The notes below the pieces were generated by a model. It saw only the letters and a list, made by a program, of their open reading frames with translations, was not told where the DNA came from and did not search any database. Positions 7,535 through 55,202 of a DNA stretch of 64,000 nucleotides are shown one piece after another. Where the stretch lies: assembly GCF_030464365.1 (NCBI RefSeq), contig NZ_VCYI01000002.1, forward strand, positions 62,001 to 126,000, in the 5' to 3' direction. The translations under genes and the position numbers were made by a program. Within the stretch, counting starts at the first letter, position 1. Each line of letters starts with the position of its first letter. Origin of the DNA: Methanoculleus methanifontis. Lineage in GTDB: Archaea > Halobacteriota > Methanomicrobia > Methanomicrobiales > Methanoculleaceae.

Positions 7535-9271
7535 ATGCGCTGCTCAATCTGCGAGAACCGCTGCGCCGTCCCGCCCGGGGGCGTCGGGCGGTGCAGGATG
7601 TATACGAACGAGGACGGAGCGATCGTCGAGCGGTTCCCCGACCGTTACATCGCGGCCATGCCGATCGCGATCGAGACGATGCCGATGTGCCACTACCACC
7701 CCCGTGGGACGTTCCTGCAGGCGAGCGGCATCGGGTGCACCTTCTCCTGCGGGGGGTGCATATCCGAGACGATCGCCTTCCACGCGGAGGCGGTCTCCGG
7801 GGCCCTCAGGCATATCCCGCCCGGCGCTCTGGTCAAGCGCGCCTTAAAAGAGGGGTGCCGGGGGATAGCCTTCTGCCTCAACGACCCGACCGCCATGCAC
7901 CGGACCTTCCTCGGGGTGGCCCGGGCTGCGCACGACGCCGGCCTCCTCGTCGGGTGCGCGACGAACGGCTATTACACGGAGGAGTCCCTCCGCGACATCG
8001 CGCCCGCCATCGATTTTGCGAACATCGGGCTGAAAGGAGCGTCGGATGCGCGTTACCGTGCGTGCGGTGCGCTCTCGGCGGAACCGGCCTTCCGGACGGT
8101 GAAGACCCTTCACGAAGCAGGCGTCCATGTCGAGGTCTCCTGCATCCACGCCCGGGGGTGCGACGACGAGATCCGGGCCGCGGCCGCCCGGGTCGCGGGG
8201 ATATCTCCCGATATCCCGTTCCTCGTCATGCGGTTCATCCCGTTCGGCGACGAACCGCCGGAGAGGGAACCGACGATTGCGGAGTCGGAGCGGATCTGCG
8301 ACGATCTGCGGCGGAAACTCCGCTACGTCTACCTCTTCAACTCGCCCGGGACCGGGTACCTCGATACGGCGTGCCCGTCCTGTGGAGAGACAGTCGTCCG
8401 GCGGGAGTTCTTCGGGCCGATGGGAGCGCGGACGATCGCGATCCCGCCGGACGCCCGGTGCTCCTGCGGTTGTTCTCTCCCCGTGACCGGGAGCGTCGCG
8501 GAGACGCTGTACGCCGAGCCGGGGATGATGGGCGGCTACCGGTTCACCCGGGCGCTGGAGATGGTTCACGCCGTCCTGGTCTGCCTCGGTGTCGAGTCCG
8601 ATGCCGACCTCGCCCGTATCTGGGCCGGGGTCATCCGGGACGACTACATCCGGGACCTCCACGGGAAGATCCAGACAATAGACGGCTACCTTGATCTCGT
8701 CCGTGAACTCGGGGAGCGGGCCGGCCGCACCGGGGCGGCGGAGAGGCTGGCCGGCTACATCGGCGACCGGGTGGCGGCGGTCTCGTCGGCGGTCGAGGGC
8801 TGCCGCCGGCCCCGGGTCTACTACTCAATGGGGTCGCCGCTCTTTGCCCTGAACGCCGACCGGTTCGAGATGGACCTCGTGGAAGCGGCCGGCGGCGACC
8901 CCGTTAACCGCGGGATCGTCCGGGCCGGAAAACCGGGCGTCAACATAACGCCGGAAGAGTTCGCCGCATTCAACCCCGAATATATCTTCGTATCCGGGTT
9001 CCTCTCGGCACCGGCCTCCGATTACATCGCGGCGTGCCGGAGGATGGGGCTCTCTGCCGACGCCGTCGAACACAGCCGTGTCTACACCCTTCCGCCGGGC
9101 TGGGACTTCGGCAACCCCCGCTGGGTGCTCGGCCTCTCTGCCATCGCAGGCACCCTCCACCCGGAGCGTGCCGTCTTCGACCTTGCCGCGGAGCAGGATC
9201 GGTTCTACCGGACGTTCTACGGGACCGATGCGGCCGCGATCACGGGGAACCGGTCGTTCTACCGTCCTTAG
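7535..9271 (+). CDS. Radical SAM enzyme fused to the C-lobe of a substrate-binding protein
   Basis: 578 residues. The N-terminus has a Cys cluster (CSICENRC, then GRC) like PflA/AmmeMemoRadiSam-type radical SAM proteins. The radical SAM cluster motif GCTFSCGGC follows near residue 70, then a TIM-barrel-like stretch to about 300, a further Cys set (CPSCGE, CSCGC), and a helical linker. From about residue 425 the sequence matches the C-terminal lobe of TroA-type binding proteins (RVYYSMGSPL, FNPEYIFVSG, GNPRWVLGLSAIAGTLHPE), closely parallel to the binding protein at 11648-12733. No signal peptide is present, so this lobe works in the cytoplasm. GGAGGGT precedes the ATG at 7535. It overlaps the convergent ATPase gene by 4 bases. 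Action on the imported compound is inference. Confidence 0.85.
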   Translation: MRCSICENRCAVPPGGVGRCRMYTNEDGAIVERFPDRYIAAMPIAIETMPMCHYHPRGTFLQASGIGCTFSCGGCISETIAFHAEAVSGALRHIPPGALVKRALKEGCRGIAFCLNDPTAMHRTFLGVARAAHDAGLLVGCATNGYYTEESLRDIAPAIDFANIGLKGASDARYRACGALSAEPAFRTVKTLHEAGVHVEVSCIHARGCDDEIRAAAARVAGISPDIPFLVMRFIPFGDEPPEREPTIAESERICDDLRRKLRYVYLFNSPGTGYLDTACPSCGETVVRREFFGPMGARTIAIPPDARCSCGCSLPVTGSVAETLYAEPGMMGGYRFTRALEMVHAVLVCLGVESDADLARIWAGVIRDDYIRDLHGKIQTIDGYLDLVRELGERAGRTGAAERLAGYIGDRVAAVSSAVEGCRRPRVYYSMGSPLFALNADRFEMDLVEAAGGDPVNRGIVRAGKPGVNITPEEFAAFNPEYIFVSGFLSAPASDYIAACRRMGLSADAVEHSRVYTLPPGWDFGNPRWVLGLSAIAGTLHPERAVFDLAAEQDRFYRTFYGTDAAAITGNRSFYRP

Positions 9272-49376: not shown

Positions 49377-49404
49377 TGCGGTCGTGGGGTTCGTCCGTGA
49401 ATCT

Positions 49405-49998
49405 TCACGCCGCTTTCTCCTCGACGGGCATTTGCCGGCAGGCGAGGGAGAGGAACAGGACGCCGAGGAGCCCGAGCCCGGCGTAGACGTAAGCCGTCCC
49501 GGCGAACTCGTAGAGCGACGGGGAGTGGATTATGATATTCTCCGGGAGCGGCGGGGCGAGGAAGAGGCCGTATGCCCAGACCAGGCCGAACAGGCTGATA
49601 ACCCCCGCTTCGATCGCCGAAAACCACGCGAACGTTCCCCTCCTGACCGGGAGCGCTCCGAGCAGGAGGATGAGGATTGTCGGGGCGAGGAGCGCGATCG
49701 CGAGCTGGCTCGCCCCGGATGGCCAGGGCGACGGTTCGAGGACGGCGAGTGCGAGGAAGAGTGCTGCGAGAGGCACTGCTGCCCACCACCTGCCGCCTTC
49801 CTCCCGCACTGCTGCAGTAAAAAGCACCGCTCCCGCGAGGGAGAGGATGCAGAAGAGGAAGAGCACCGGCGCGAGTTCTGTGACCCGGTGATCGAACTGA
49901 CCGTCGTAGACGAACCGGGCATACACCCCGGTCACGGGAACGGCGATGAAATACGCCGCGGTGAGGGCGAGCGCGATCGAGGATCTCTCCGGCGCCAT
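49405..49998 (-). CDS. Multi-pass membrane protein, second gene of the E1-controlled pair
   Basis: 197 residues from the ATG at 49998, which follows GGAGGGGTGA; the longer frame is read-through of the upstream gene. About six hydrophobic segments. No family recognised. It lies 2 bases behind the gene at 50001-50561 and shares its promoter with the GTGTAGA element. Role in the envelope is likely. Confidence 0.75.
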   Translation of the reverse strand: MAPERSSIALALTAAYFIAVPVTGVYARFVYDGQFDHRVTELAPVLFLFCILSLAGAVLFTAAVREEGGRWWAAVPLAALFLALAVLEPSPWPSGASQLAIALLAPTILILLLGALPVRRGTFAWFSAIEAGVISLFGLVWAYGLFLAPPLPENIIIHSPSLYEFAGTAYVYAGLGLLGVLFLSLACRQMPVEEKAA

Positions 49999-50000
49999 TC

Positions 50001-50561
50001 TCACCCCTCCTCCTCGGCGCGCCCCTCTCCCTCCAACCCCGGGACGGCGATCAGGCGGAGAACGGCGTAGAGTATGGTTGCGACCAGCACACACTCGAGG
50101 TAGAACCCGAAGACCCCGAAGGCGGAGAAGAGCAGGCTATACGCGAGGGTGCCCGCGGTGAGGGGGAGGACGTTCATGATCCCGTCGAAGAGCCACCCGA
50201 ATACCGGCACGCTGTCCACGAGGAGCGGGAGGGCGTCGCCTCGTTCCCACTGGCCCGGGTTTATCAGGAGGGCGGCGACGAACGGAACCGAGGCTGCAAC
50301 GGCGACGAGCATCGCCTGCCGCTCTCTCCTGATCGGGACGGCGCCCGAGATAAGCGGAAGCGGCGTCGCGGCTCCCGCGACCGCAAGGGTGACCATCACG
50401 AGAACGAAGACGGGGAGGACGAACGGTGGCGCCGGTCCGATGATCCCGGAGGCGGTTCTCGCAGTACCCGCCCAGATCACGCATGCGACGACCGCAACGA
50501 GCGGGGGGATGGCCGGCGAGAACCGGCTCCGGGGGAGCGAGGCGACGATCTTACCTGACAT
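50001..50561 (-). CDS. Multi-pass membrane protein, first gene of the E1-controlled pair
   Basis: About 186 residues from the ATG at 50561. An ATG at 50609 lies only about 25 bases behind the TATA box of element E1 and would give a leaderless message with 16 more residues. Five or six hydrophobic segments (PPLVAVVACVIWAG, PFVLPVFVLVMVTLAVAGA and others). No family recognised. The stop sits just before the downstream membrane protein gene. Confidence 0.75.
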   Translation of the reverse strand: MSGKIVASLPRSRFSPAIPPLVAVVACVIWAGTARTASGIIGPAPPFVLPVFVLVMVTLAVAGAATPLPLISGAVPIRRERQAMLVAVAASVPFVAALLINPGQWERGDALPLLVDSVPVFGWLFDGIMNVLPLTAGTLAYSLLFSAFGVFGFYLECVLVATILYAVLRLIAVPGLEGEGRAEEEG

Positions 50562-50933
50562 ACTGCACCGTCCGGGACGCGGTTCGGCTTCCGGGTCCTG
50601 GAAATCCATGGGAAAAGTCAACATTCTTCTATAAACGATTTCTGTCACGATCCTCTACACGTCGGGGTGAGTCAACCCGTTCTGCTCATGGAGCGGGTTG
50701 CAAACGGCCGGGACATACAGTCCCGCGGATCCCGTCATGCGGGGTGATACCCCTCCCTCAGAACATGCAGGTATTATCGCCGGGAAAAACGGTTTCGCCG
50801 GTTCATTGAGGATAAGGTGCAGGTTAATCGTGTTTTTTGATCGAAGAAGCCCTGCCGGCAAATAACAAATTATTTTAAGTTTAAACAAATGTACCTTATC
50901 TGGACTAATTACAATTTACCAAGGTGTATTTGC
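50562..50933. other. Divergent intergenic region before the PGF-CTERM gene
   Basis: About 370 bases. It contains regulatory element E1 (50617-50667, for the minus strand) and an AT-rich plus-strand promoter near 50865-50900 (AATAACAAATTATTTTAAG). No gene seen. Confidence 0.5.
50617..50667 (-). promoter_or_regulatory. Shared promoter element E1
   Basis: On the minus strand: GTGTAGAGGATCGTGACAGA, then AATCGTTTATAGAAGAATG. GTGTAG starts 25 bases before the TATA box (TTTATA). The six copies in this window keep that distance. It serves the membrane gene pair 50561-49405. Confidence 0.8.
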
Positions 50934-51587
50934 ATGAACCACGATGGAAAAGTTCTCAAAGCATGTGCCGCGGCACTGTTTCTGTTTGCACTCATCTGCA
51001 TGCCGGCATCGGCAAGCCAGAACACAATCGAGACCGAGGTCGCCGGGATCATCGAGCTTGCAGACGCTCTGTACGATGATGCGACGACCATTCTCGAAGA
51101 GACCAGGGTCATCAACAGGGATGCAAACGTCTCCGATGAGGTAAAACAGGTATCGAAGCCGATTCATATGGCTTCGCACGAACTTGAGCATATTGCGGAG
51201 CACATCCAGGACGATGCCCTCGAGCTCCAGACCCTGGTCGCCGACCCGGTGGCCAACCGGGCTGCGATTGACGGGGTCGTCGCCGATATCGGAGTGAATG
51301 TTGGAAATTACACGGCGCTCCTGGAATCTCAACACGAGAATGTCCACGAACTGGAGGAGATTGTACCCGCGTCTCACAAAGGGAACGCTGAAGGAGTCCA
51401 TGACGCCGCACACCAGGCGGAGCGTGACGCAAAGAACCTGCTCAGGACCACGGACGTGCTCGTTGCAGCCCTTGACGCAGGGACCGCCGCACCGGCACCG
51501 TCTTCATCCGCAGAGAGCCCCGGATTTGGCGCGGTTGCAGCCCTTGGCGGGCTTGCTGCGGTTGCATATGCCGCACACAGGAGGTAA
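50934..51587 (+). CDS. His-rich secreted protein with PGF-CTERM anchor
   Basis: 217 residues from the ATG at 50934, behind AAGGTG. Signal peptide (LFLFALICMPASA), then long alpha-helices with many His and acidic residues: HELEHIAEHIQDD, ESQHENVHELEEIV, SHKGNAEGVHDAAHQAE. An Ala/Pro/Ser linker and a PGF-CTERM tail (PGFGAVAALGGLAAVAYAAH, Arg end) mark it for archaeosortase processing and lipid attachment. It directly precedes the nickel/cobalt transporter operon and may be a surface metal-binding protein for it. That role is inference. Confidence 0.8.
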   Translation: MNHDGKVLKACAAALFLFALICMPASASQNTIETEVAGIIELADALYDDATTILEETRVINRDANVSDEVKQVSKPIHMASHELEHIAEHIQDDALELQTLVADPVANRAAIDGVVADIGVNVGNYTALLESQHENVHELEEIVPASHKGNAEGVHDAAHQAERDAKNLLRTTDVLVAALDAGTAAPAPSSSAESPGFGAVAALGGLAAVAYAAHRR

Positions 51588-51680
51588 GGGCATGCAGGGG
51601 GGAATTCTCCCCTTCGGTCCCTTTATTCTCAGCGATAGCCGTTCTCTGAAATTCAAACCAGTATCAGGAGAGTAGCATCC

Positions 51681-52310
51681 ATGCACATATCAGACGGTGT
51701 TCTGCCCATGCCGGTGATCGTCGCCGGGTGGGTGATCACCATCATCCTGCTGGCCGGAACACTCCGGTGGGCGGCCAAAAAGGGCGATATCGCCAGAGAG
51801 ATCCCGAAACTCTCGGTGATGGCGGGAGCATTCTTCGTCGCTTCGCTCATCCACATCGACATCCCGCCCTCAAGCGCCCACCTCATCTTAAACGGGCTCG
51901 TCGGCGTCGTGCTCGGGCCGCTCAGTTATCTCGCCCTCTTTATCGGGCTTACGCTGCAGGCGCTGCTCTTCCAGCACGGCGGCATCACGGTCATCGGGAT
52001 CAACACCGTGAACGTGGGCATACCCGCCCTCATCTGTTACCTGGCTTTCCTGGCCGGCTCAAAGCGAGGAATCCCGCTCCCCGCGATCGGCGGGGTCTGC
52101 GGAGGGCTCGGCGTCCTTCTCACGGTGGTCCTGCTGGTGCTGGTTCTCGTTGTCTCGGGAGACCAGTTCTTTGCGGTAGCCGGGCTTCTCGCCGGTGCCC
52201 ATCTCCCGATCGCCGTTGCCGAAGCAATTGTGACGGGGGCGGTGGTCGGGTACCTCGTACGGGTAAAACCCGAATTACTTCCCATTCCACTCAAAGGAGA
52301 GAAAAAATGA
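51681..52310 (+). CDS. cbiM: Nickel/cobalt ECF transporter substrate-binding subunit (CbiM/NikM)
   Basis: 209 residues; CAGGAGAG precedes the ATG. It starts MHISDGVLP, the conserved N-terminus whose amino group and His2 bind the Ni2+ or Co2+ ion, followed by HIDIPPSSAHLILNGLVG, LQALLFQHGGITVIGIN and about six spans. Nickel and cobalt cannot be told apart by sequence here; a methanogen needs both (F430, hydrogenase, corrinoids). It overlaps the next gene by ATGA. Confidence 0.92.
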   Translation: MHISDGVLPMPVIVAGWVITIILLAGTLRWAAKKGDIAREIPKLSVMAGAFFVASLIHIDIPPSSAHLILNGLVGVVLGPLSYLALFIGLTLQALLFQHGGITVIGINTVNVGIPALICYLAFLAGSKRGIPLPAIGGVCGGLGVLLTVVLLVLVLVVSGDQFFAVAGLLAGAHLPIAVAEAIVTGAVVGYLVRVKPELLPIPLKGEKK

Positions 52311-52780
52311 AGAGAAACATACTGCTGCTCGGCCTGGTCGTCCTCCTCCTCTCTACCGCATGCATCGCCCCCGTATCGGCGCACAGGGCCTTTGCCGGTG
52401 CGTTCATGACGGGCGATGTAGAGGACGAGGTCATGATCCGGGCATGGTACGAGGGGGGAGCCCCCATGGCCGATGCCGATATTACCATCTATGCCGTCCG
52501 GGACGGTGAAGAAGAGGTCTACATCGAGGACGTAACCGACGAACTGGGCTTCTATTCGTTCGAACCCGAATGGAGGGTGACGGAGTACCGTATCCTCGTC
52601 GAGCAGACGGGGCACCGGGCAGAGATCGACCTCGACCTTGAATCCGGGACCTCGACGGGGTCGGAGAGTGCGGAACTCCCGCTTGTAGCGCGGATCATCG
52701 CCGGGTTCGGCTACCTGCTCGGGCTTGCCGGCATCGCGATGATCTACTCGGCAAAGATGCAGAACAGGGGCCCGGAGTGA
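52307..52780 (+). CDS. Nickel/cobalt transport accessory protein (NikL-like)
   Basis: 157 residues. Signal peptide (LGLVVLLLSTACIAPVSA), a mature N-terminus starting HRAFAGAF, a beta-rich outer domain (ADADITIYAVRDGEEEVY) and a C-terminal membrane anchor. That order matches NikL/CbiL-type accessory components, in which an outer domain serves the CbiM subunit. His-1 of the mature part may bind metal. Its position between cbiM and cbiQ supports the assignment. Confidence 0.8.
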   Translation: MKRNILLLGLVVLLLSTACIAPVSAHRAFAGAFMTGDVEDEVMIRAWYEGGAPMADADITIYAVRDGEEEVYIEDVTDELGFYSFEPEWRVTEYRILVEQTGHRAEIDLDLESGTSTGSESAELPLVARIIAGFGYLLGLAGIAMIYSAKMQNRGPE

Positions 52781-52806
52781 CCCGCTCCGGATGAGTACGG
52801 TGACTC

Positions 52807-53571
52807 ATGCGCTACCCGGACATCGATAAGTACGCATGGCTGGACTCTCCGATCCACAGGCTTGAGCCGCGGATCAAGATCCTGTCGTTCACCGTCCTCA
52901 TCTTTTCTGCGGTCTTCGTCGGAAATATTCCCGCCGCGCTCCTGGCGCTTGCGGTAGCCCTGCTGATCCTGATCCTCTCGCGCCTGCCGGTGCGGTTCGT
53001 CCTGCAGCGCTCGACGCCAATCCTGGTCTTCGTCCTCCCGATCCTTCTTCTGATGCCGCTTACCGTCCCCGGAACCCCTATCTGGTCGGCTGGCCCGGTT
53101 GCTTTTACGGAGGAGGGCCTGTCGTATGCGGTTCTCATAACGATCAGGGCCGTCGCGGCGATCGTGCTCGTCCTCACCCTCCTTGGAACGCAGCGCATTG
53201 AGGCGACGCTTCGGGCGCTCTCGCTGTTGCGGGTTCCGGGGGTCATCATCCAGATGCTGTTCTTTACCTATCGCTACATATATGTCATGATGGATGAATT
53301 TCTCAGCATCTGGAGCGCGATGCGGGCGAAGGGCTACACGTTGCGGCCGAACAGGTACGGGCTCTCCATCATCGGGAACCTTGTCGGTATGCTGCTGGTG
53401 AAGAGTTACGAGAGGGCTGAGAGGGTCTATTGCGGCATGGAGGCGAGGGGGTATCGCGGAAAGCCGATCACCGTCGCCCCCTTCTCGATCACCGCAGCCG
53501 ACTATTTCGCCTGTCTCCTCCTCATCGGCATCGCCGGGGGACTGCAGGTCTATCCGCTGGTGGCGCTATGA
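52807..53571 (+). CDS. cbiQ: ECF transporter transmembrane protein (CbiQ)
   Basis: 254 residues. DKYAWLDSPIHRLEPRIKIL at the start and a helical pair with FLSIWSAMRAKGY and RVYCGMEARGY, the coupling helices that dock to the ATPase, are typical of CbiQ. About five or six spans. It overlaps cbiO by ATGA, and forms the energy-coupling module with it. Confidence 0.92.
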   Translation: MRYPDIDKYAWLDSPIHRLEPRIKILSFTVLIFSAVFVGNIPAALLALAVALLILILSRLPVRFVLQRSTPILVFVLPILLLMPLTVPGTPIWSAGPVAFTEEGLSYAVLITIRAVAAIVLVLTLLGTQRIEATLRALSLLRVPGVIIQMLFFTYRYIYVMMDEFLSIWSAMRAKGYTLRPNRYGLSIIGNLVGMLLVKSYERAERVYCGMEARGYRGKPITVAPFSITAADYFACLLLIGIAGGLQVYPLVAL

Positions 53572-54476
53572 ACGAAGCCGTGACGATTCGAGACCTCAGC
53601 CACCGGTACCCGGACGGCACCGTATCGCTCGAGGATGTCTCTCTTACGGTGCATGGGGGCGAGCGGCTCGCGATCGTCGGGCAGAACGGGGCCGGGAAGA
53701 CGACGCTCTTCCTCCACCTGAACGGCTCCATCAAGAGCCCCGACAACGTGTTCGTCTTCGGCGAGAGCGTCCGATCCATGCCGATCGAGGAACGCATACA
53801 GAAGGTCGGCGTCGTCTTCCAGGACCCCGACGACCAGCTCTTCATGCCCACCCTCTACGACGATGTGGCGTTCGGCCCGATCAACATGGGGCTTTCGCGG
53901 GACGAGGTCGACCGGCGCGTCAGGGAGGCCCTTGCGACCGTCGGACTCTCCGGATTTGAGGATCGCGTTCCCCACCACATGAGTTACGGCGAGAAGAAGC
54001 GCGCCGCGCTGGCGGCGGTTCTCTCCATGGAGCCCAGGATCCTCGTCCTCGACGAACCGACCGCAAACCTCGATCCGAAGAACCGGGCCCATCTCATCGA
54101 TCTCATCAACAGGCTGAACCGGGAGAAGGGGATCACCACCATCGTCGCCATGCACGACGTCAACGCCGTCTCCCACCTGGCGGACCGGGTCGTCGTGCTC
54201 AACACCACGATCGTCGCGGACGGGGATGTCCACAGCATCTTCTCGGACAGCAAATTGCTGAAGGAGAACAACCTCGAAGCGCCGGACGCCTATAAACTCT
54301 TCCGTATCATGGGCTGTTACGGCTATGCCTGCTGCAATGCTCTTCCTCTCTCGGTCGCGGACGCTCCCGGTGCTCTTGATGCGTCGCTCGAGGAGAACGG
54401 GGGCGCGATCAGCCTGAGGCGGGACGGCCGGACCGCGGAAGAACTCCGCGAGGTGTTCGAGCGGTTCGAGTACTGA
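53568..54476 (+). CDS. cbiO: ECF transporter ATP-binding protein (CbiO) with C-terminal extension
   Basis: 302 residues from the ATG at 53568. Walker A GQNGAGKTTLF, signature MSYGEKKRAALAAVL (a variant), Walker B ILVLDEPTANLD and the His in AMHD are present. Beyond the normal end near residue 240 it has about 60 more residues with a Cys stretch CYGYACC and then an acidic helix. That tail could sense metal. It completes the CbiMLQO-type importer. Confidence 0.92.
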   Translation: MNEAVTIRDLSHRYPDGTVSLEDVSLTVHGGERLAIVGQNGAGKTTLFLHLNGSIKSPDNVFVFGESVRSMPIEERIQKVGVVFQDPDDQLFMPTLYDDVAFGPINMGLSRDEVDRRVREALATVGLSGFEDRVPHHMSYGEKKRAALAAVLSMEPRILVLDEPTANLDPKNRAHLIDLINRLNREKGITTIVAMHDVNAVSHLADRVVVLNTTIVADGDVHSIFSDSKLLKENNLEAPDAYKLFRIMGCYGYACCNALPLSVADAPGALDASLEENGGAISLRRDGRTAEELREVFERFEY

Positions 54477-54541
54477 GCGGCTTGAACTGCCCTTTTCTCC
54501 GGGTAAACGACCGTATCCCCGTTCCGGCCGGTGCGGAACCG

Positions 54542-55090
54542 TTAGAGGGCCAGCCAGGGGCCGACGGTCCACCGATGGAGGTAGAACGCGAGGATCGCAT
54601 CGGTTGCCAGAGCGACGAAGACGGCCCGGTCCTTCGACTTCTCGTGGAATATCCATACGCCGAAGTAGGTCGAGAGGCAGAACCAGGCGAGGAGGAGCAG
54701 GCCGGCGAACGAAACCCCCAGGAGGACCGCCCGGGAGAAGAGGATGAGCGGCGCGAGAGCATAGACCGCCGATTTCATCGTCTTCTCGAACTCCCGGTGG
54801 ACGTCGACGAAGAGCAGGAAGAAGTGCTCGACGAGGCTGACGGCGAGGAGGGCGACGGCCCCGGTTATCAGGCCCTGCACGAGGACGATCAGGGTGCCGG
54901 CTACGATGAACCAGGCCCGGTGCATCCCGTCAGTCTCCGCTGCCTCTCCCGTAAGGAGGGGTAACGCCATGAATAGGACCGACGCGACTGCGATGATCGC
55001 GAAGTAAAATATGAGATCGTCGCGCAGCGGTTTTTCGTTGAGTTGCCGGAAACGGTGCCGTAGACCGGTGATGATTGTTCCTGTCGACAT
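54542..55090 (-). CDS. Multi-pass membrane protein under element E2
   Basis: 182 residues with about five hydrophobic segments and a basic N-terminus (HRFRQLNEKPLRDD). No family recognised. Element E2 lies 60 bases upstream with a TATA box that puts the transcript start at about 55140, leaving a 50-base leader. It is convergent with cbiO. Confidence 0.75.
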   Translation of the reverse strand: MSTGTIITGLRHRFRQLNEKPLRDDLIFYFAIIAVASVLFMALPLLTGEAAETDGMHRAWFIVAGTLIVLVQGLITGAVALLAVSLVEHFFLLFVDVHREFEKTMKSAVYALAPLILFSRAVLLGVSFAGLLLLAWFCLSTYFGVWIFHEKSKDRAVFVALATDAILAFYLHRWTVGPWLAL

Positions 55091-55151
55091 GCACTTCTCC
55101 TCCCGGAATGACTGCAGTCATCCGTCCGGTTCCGGTATCGATGCGGGAGAG

Positions 55152-55202
55152 GTCAACGTTCTTCTATAAACGATTTCTGTCCGAACCGTCTACACGTCGG
55201 GG
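55152..55202 (-). promoter_or_regulatory. Shared promoter element E2
   Basis: On the minus strand: CGACGTGTAGACGG..CGGACAGAAATCGTTTATAG. GTGTAG to TTTATA is again 25 bases. It drives the membrane gene 55090-54542. Confidence 0.8.

Follow-up and report, generated by a model that had tools for sequence, protein, structure and literature searches.

The window analysed here, the whole stretch of 64,000 nucleotides from Methanoculleus methanifontis, contains an operon of five plus-strand genes in the order His-rich gene, cbiM, NikL-like gene, cbiQ and cbiO. The features of the locus are presented in Table 1. CbiM, CbiQ and CbiO encoded together (PF01891, PF02361, PF00005) identify a Group I ECF importer of nickel or cobalt. 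The third gene product scored below the NF058648 cut-off of 100 and was for this reason called NikL-like only. CbiN (PF02553) was not found among the operon proteins of the window. The His-rich gene lies directly before cbiM on the same strand, as stated in the first-pass annotation, with a gap of 93-94 bp, and from cbiM onward the junctions are short or overlapping. The consensus scan gave no terminator-like site between the His-rich gene and cbiM; across the window 3 such sites were observed vs 2.4 expected. A sigma-70 promoter scan was discounted since this consensus is not applicable to archaea. The Rfam search over 49400-55200 was empty and hence gave no riboswitch hint at the cargo.

Table 1. 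Features of the operon and of its first gene, in window coordinates.
Feature	Position	Strand	Evidence
Exported His-rich protein of 217 aa with PGF-CTERM tail, encoded first in the operon	50934..51587	+	ORF, profile matches, synteny
Predicted signal peptide, residues 1-27 (...MPASA/SQNT)	50934..51014	+	cleavage site judged by eye
Predicted four-helix domain, residues 28-183 (model helices 25-62, 68-101, 109-143, 146-184)	51015..51482	+	structure model, alignment
His ladder of helix 2: H78, H82, H86, H90, spacing i, i+4	51165..51203	+	alignment
H138 (helix 3), H156-x3-H160 (helix 4), H148	51345..51413	+	alignment
PGF-CTERM archaeosortase tail, residues 191-217	51504..51584	+	PF18204 and TIGR04126 above cut-off
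cbiM, S-component	51681..52310	+	PF01891 177 bits; NF004905 above cut-off
NikL-like exported protein, C-terminal membrane helix (by eye)	52307..52780	+	NF058648 55.9 bits, E 5e-15
cbiQ, T-component	52807..53571	+	PF02361 and TIGR02454 above cut-off
cbiO, ATPase	53568..54476	+	PF00005 above cut-off; ECF ATPase models below their cut-offs
Terminator-like hairpin overlapping the cbiO end	54461..54490	+	consensus match only

The ORF of the His-rich protein was translated from the ATG at 50934 to the stop codon at 51585-51587. An in-frame alternative ATG is located further 5', at 50889; the start at 50934 yields a normal signal peptide, and a comparable N-terminus could be read by eye in 19 homologues encoded 5' of cbiM. 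The initial description of the protein as rich in His and acidic residues agrees with its composition, 11 His (5.1%) and 15.2% Asp+Glu. The median His content of the non-overlapping window ORFs of at least 150 aa was 2.67%, and 3 of these 56 ORFs reached 5% or more, in a ranking that took the longer, 232-aa reading of the His-rich ORF; the protein is not uniquely His-rich within the window. The gene is under purifying selection, with dN/dS values of 0.33 and 0.26 determined against two relatives. The corresponding values of cbiM were 0-0.02, i.e. the constraint on the His-rich gene is looser and its evolution faster. No fitting curated family was found for the domain of the window protein in Pfam, NCBIfam or PADLOC. 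The coiled-coil matches of longer homologues, a few of which exceeded the Pfam cut-offs, were set aside as they look compositional.

The C-terminus has the layout of a PGF motif, a hydrophobic stretch and a basic end. It scored 21.7 bits against PF18204 (cut-off 18.8) and narrowly passed TIGR04126 with 24.8 bits (cut-off 24.5). Archaeosortase A (TIGR04125) is encoded in the genome of the window, at G000:C28, with a score of 316 bits against a cut-off of 75. The archaeosortase tail noted at first reading was confirmed by these results. The tail and the presence of the enzyme together suggest that the His-rich protein is lipid-anchored by archaeosortase A.

The mature protein consists of about 155 residues of helix followed by a short linker and the PGF-CTERM tail. 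In a structure model built from three close sequences, the domain was predicted as a confident four-helix bundle with 145 residues at a pLDDT of at least 90 and a mean pLDDT of 91-99 in each ten-residue block of residues 31-180, which is consistent with the helical character proposed earlier. The Foldseek search with the bundle model resulted in nothing at E 0.001 or better, and the matches of both this search and a sequence-profile search of the PDB with the domain were confined to designed bundles and helical proteins of a generic kind. With VIA-align, designed maquettes were matched at Z 17-18 and copper storage proteins (Csp) at Z 11-12, where matches under 13 may reflect merely a common helix arrangement; sensor domains were also among the fold matches.

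The conservation was determined from an alignment of 18 domains out of 11 genomes. D63, H78, H138, H156 and H160 (numbering of the window protein) were invariant in all of them, H82 was present in 17 and H148 in 14. The window protein lacks His 42, 54 and 168 of some relatives, and its mature form begins with Ser where many relatives have His. A crude calculation from the helix boundaries, made without atomic coordinates, placed the conserved His on the non-buried faces of helices 2, 3 and 4, as HxxxH pairs in helices 2 and 4 and H138 in helix 3. Due to this placement, the conservation of the invariant His is stricter than folding alone would lead one to expect. By the same rough bundle arithmetic the His pairs of helix 2 and helix 4 are 17-20 Å apart, and the clustering of the five His was marginal compared with random picks, 0.065 and 0.075 of the draws being equally close or closer. 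This rough calculation favours exposed sites of two or three His over one common pocket. A buried metal site in the core was rejected, as in the rough model from helix boundaries, with 3.5 residues per turn, the conserved His pointed 88-165 degrees away from the buried side.

The link to cbiM was determined with a single-sequence search of the 232 genomes of the order, which was the unbiased linkage test. Strong homologues (E 1e-26 or better) were found in 8 genomes; the search listed 11, the remaining 3 at E 0.01-0.08. With a threshold of E 1e-40, the window-type cbiM was detected in exactly these 8 genomes of the 232, and the homologue was located directly 5' of it in 8/8. The linkage of the His-rich gene with this cbiM type exceeds chance. 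Second copies of this cbiM type in two genomes (G141, G079) are without the His gene and have an HWH-type protein 5' instead. Within the genus, the His-rich gene was present in 3 of 35 genomes. At E 0.001, the profile of the 18 domains (A1) had matches in 24 of the 392 genomes of the phylum, in three of them weak ones (E 4e-4 to 7e-4, long proteins). Since 9 of the 18 domains (L051, L055, L056, L059) had been collected by looking 5' of cbiM, the ranking of this profile favours cbiM-linked members. The other 21 genomes hold 30 genes, from which 17 are directly 5' of cbiM, 1 is inside the operon (cbiM-nikL-His-cbiQ-cbiO in G256), 2 are with FeoA/FeoB and 10 are elsewhere. The number of domain copies per homologous protein varies from one to three. 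The distances of the His protein and of CbiM correlated with a rho of 0.61, and 0 of 5000 permutations were as high (Mantel test); shared descent alone suffices for this correlation. In G220:C51:273518-274141 (L085), an in-frame TAG stop interrupts the cbiM that directly follows the His gene; it may reflect decay, a sequencing error or read-through.

The two homologues in FeoA/FeoB ferrous-iron clusters (by Pfam; G124, L128 1406-6337, and G260, L133 6612-9683) are distant, PGF-tailed His bundles. Among the 10 genes outside the cbiM and feo contexts, one (G254) adjoins a cobW-family gene and one (G124) is directly 3' of a DUF4198 gene. Four are in G074 (L125, L126) and encode proteins of about 600 aa or fragments at contig ends; the one G074 protein that was scored had weak sulfotransferase-like matches.

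The slot 5' of cbiM was surveyed at 74 cbiM loci, comprising 72 matches, G009 and G013, with the two near-identical copies of G282 counted apart. The His four-helix protein was found in the slot at 19 of the 74 loci, with a PGF tail in all 19; the gap to cbiM was 19-145 bp in 18 loci and 376 bp in one. Orthologues remote from nickel and cobalt transport genes had been named at the outset as a refuting outcome; adjacency in every one of the eight order genomes and at these 19 loci speaks for the link. A DUF4198-type protein, whose domain we take to be that of NikK, was in the slot at 45 loci, 36 of these with a PGF tail, as assigned by a profile from four members, three of the family being confirmed with Pfam. 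A third, His-rich protein of HWH type with a PGF-like tail was detected at 2 loci; the one tail scored, of L086, was below both PGF cut-offs. Of the remaining 8 loci, four, two of which are at contig ends, showed no ORF reaching 80 aa over a distance of 700 bp, and the other four differed in what they had: G256 with the His gene inside the operon, the second copy of G041, G249 and G204. The slot proteins of G249 and G204 are DUF4198-like by eye and were missed by the profile. Judged by this gene order, the His-rich protein occupies the NikK slot. The His cluster and a DUF4198-type unit occur together in seven genomes (G050, G121, G126, G186 in tandem, G190, G282, G328). In G141 and G186 (loci L086, L139), there are two tandem cbiM-nikL S-units, each with its own exported protein 5' and only one beside cbiQ/cbiO, a pattern that links the exported protein to the CbiM-NikL unit.

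The replacing proteins have features of their own. The HWH-type proteins (L086 4597-5610, L088 4844-5872) contain repeated HWH and HGDHVHV motifs, a tandem repeat and a PGF-like tail; they were without a Pfam or NCBIfam domain match, and their genes stand between B12 biosynthesis genes and the second cbiM. The mature N-terminus of the PGF-tailed DUF4198 proteins 5' of archaeal cbiM (36 loci, e.g. L058 420-1379, L064 448-1485) begins by eye with His, like that of the bacterial nickel binder.

ECF importers have been described as working without a substrate-binding protein (PMC7689651), and the first-pass annotation held that no nickel or cobalt importer of this kind was known to use a cell-wall-linked capture protein. 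The latter claim was too strong. NikK and NikL are reported as established extra components of the NikKMLQO nickel importers (PMC2667541), and DUF4198 is described as a secreted nickel binder with a Kd of 18 nM, the crystal structure of which has the nickel site in a cleft built on the N-terminal histidine (PMC12537917). The 2009 survey reports archaeal systems of the NikMN type only (PMC2667541). The novelty of the locus lies in the unrelated four-helix fold in the NikK slot and in the predicted archaeosortase anchor, whereas an extracytoplasmic extra component in itself was already known. What appears to be new is a putative NikK-like role in an unrelated, anchored fold. A literature search by title and abstract, with subscription journals mostly outside its coverage, gave no paper on an ECF metal operon that encodes a His-rich PGF-CTERM protein.

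The similarity with NikK lies in export, in the position at the start of a CbiM/NikM-NikL-Q-O operon, in presumed metal capture and in the PGF tail that archaeal NikK proteins often have. In contrast to NikK (DUF4198, PF10670), the window protein had no PF10670 match (up to E 5) and is a predicted helical bundle. CbiM, CbiQ and CbiO are shared with the cobalt importer CbiMNQO, but the window operon has a NikL-like protein and a predicted-anchored His protein in place of CbiN, which sits in the other cluster of the genome. PGF-CTERM anchored ABC substrate-binding proteins (TIGR04281) are comparable in anchoring through the same tail and in presumed substrate delivery; the window protein scored only 15.5 bits against their cut-off of 325, over residues 138-217, and pairs with an ECF importer. 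Csp proteins are metal proteins with a four-helix bundle and were matched amid generic bundles. They bind Cu(I) via Cys inside the bundle, whereas the conserved His of the window protein are on outer faces. Anglerases (Ang-1/Ang-2 on HupE/UreJ-2) are comparable in the proposed supply of a nickel permease by an extracytoplasmic domain that binds metal; this domain is described as permease-fused with an N-terminal His (PMC12537917), unlike the separate, predicted-anchored window protein with His on the helix surface.

We consider that the His-rich protein probably captures metal at the cell surface, as a subunit of an ECF importer similar to NikKMLQO. The protein would be exported, cut and lipid-anchored by archaeosortase A, which would leave the four-helix bundle outside the membrane. 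Ni(II) or Co(II) would be held, easily released, on the outer-face HxxxH pairs and other His of helices 2, 3 and 4 and passed on to the NikL-like protein and to CbiM, at its N-terminal MHI, a feature known from NikM; CbiQ/CbiO would then energise the inward transport. Counting against a capture role, most cbiM loci do without the His four-helix protein.

The exposed stripes of His without a defined pocket, the one to three domain copies per protein, resembling a capacity device, and the orphan homologues without a transporter would also fit a surface buffer or sink that binds Ni, Co or Fe outside the cell to damp excess or to store metal, with no direct hand-over to CbiM. This is unlikely, as the gene is the first of an importer operon at 19 of the 74 cbiM loci and the slot is shared with DUF4198, which binds nickel and is linked with uptake operons (PMC12537917). 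Somewhat less probable still is an extracytoplasmic subunit for assembly or gating that acts mechanically on CbiM/NikL like the CbiN loop and uses its His for contacts instead of metal. CbiN is reported to be required, with its loop over the metal pocket of CbiM (PMC7689651), and the absence of CbiN from the window operon is in line with this explanation, as is the distance correlation between the His protein and CbiM, though the latter is explicable by shared descent. However, the homologous domain adjoins FeoA/FeoB, an unrelated transporter, and the invariant set is dominated by His over other residue types.

A surface protein travelling with the operon as a passenger, with no part in transport, could explain the faster evolution compared with cbiM, and the three related genus genomes may stem from one acquisition. 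We regard it as very improbable, since the same position is kept in several families within and beyond the order, the His are invariant and other exported metal-type proteins replace the His protein at the same position. A sensor or signalling protein reporting external Ni/Co has the least to be said for it and is hardly to be expected: helical bundles are frequent in sensors and sensor domains were among the fold matches, but no regulator was found among the operon proteins with Pfam, and the C-terminus is a sorting tail, after processing of which no transmembrane signalling helix would be left.

Methanogens need nickel and cobalt in quantity, and nickel must be imported. A PDGLE (NikN) match was found in 28 of 35 genus genomes, in 27 of them stop-free and over nearly the full profile. 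In the genome of the window, it covered profile positions 36-100 only and contained an internal stop. The match was absent in G009, G013 and five incomplete genomes (G014, G020, G021, G023, G024). The remnants in G000:C28:62900-63260 (L217 about 8950-9260, minus strand) consist of the N-terminal part of nikM and the C-terminal half of nikN, while nikQ and nikO are whole and 88-89% identical to those of G004. Compared with G004, a single stretch of about 650 bp has been deleted, and with it most of nikM and the beginning of nikN. The other cbiM of the genome is followed by CbiN, with a CbiA-like gene alongside, and NicO is absent from the genome. Due to the decayed nikMN, the CbiM-CbiN pair by the CbiA-like gene and the absence of NicO, the strongest candidate for nickel import among the ECF-type and NicO systems compared is the window operon, and its cargo in this genome is most likely nickel. 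Cobalamin genes flank 4 of the 16 His-type clusters examined (of 19) vs 0 of the 20 DUF4198-type clusters examined (of 45), which suggests a cobalt cargo in the relatives flanked by B12 genes. The assignment of a cobalt importer because of B12 genes was rejected as too simple, as the surroundings of the window operon showed no such gene and the other CbiM-CbiN lies by the CbiA-like gene. The evidence for nickel and for cobalt conflicts. G127 and G399 have one CbiM each, and in these genomes the sole CbiM may serve both metals.

More tentatively, and short of an even chance in our estimate, archaea may possess a class of metal antennae that are anchored by archaeosortase and can be exchanged: the CbiM-NikL slot would be shared by three or more unrelated types, among them the His bundle, DUF4198 and the HWH-type, likely of strands, and the four-helix antenna would also serve FeoB, with the capture specificity evolving apart from the permease. 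In the genome of the window, the gain of the unit would have accompanied the loss of NikM/NikN. If true, surface metal capture has been solved several times in archaea, with different folds and the same anchoring. With one soluble domain, five His that are nearly invariant and a link to one S-unit, such a protein would also offer a handle on the metal specificity of CbiM-type S-units.

Two unusual arrangements were observed among the relatives. In G186 (L139 1490-8666), three CbiM/NikM-type genes are neighbours. One is a NikM accompanied by PDGLE, one belongs to a His-type unit that includes Q and O, and the third, split over ORFs, is the cbiM of a DUF4198-type unit. In G254 and G041 (L137 6252-7610, L138 1990-3348), the cbiM-nikL-cbiQ operon is without an adjacent cbiO, and just 5' of it the opposite strand encodes a protein of 452 aa that contains an ABC ATPase domain.
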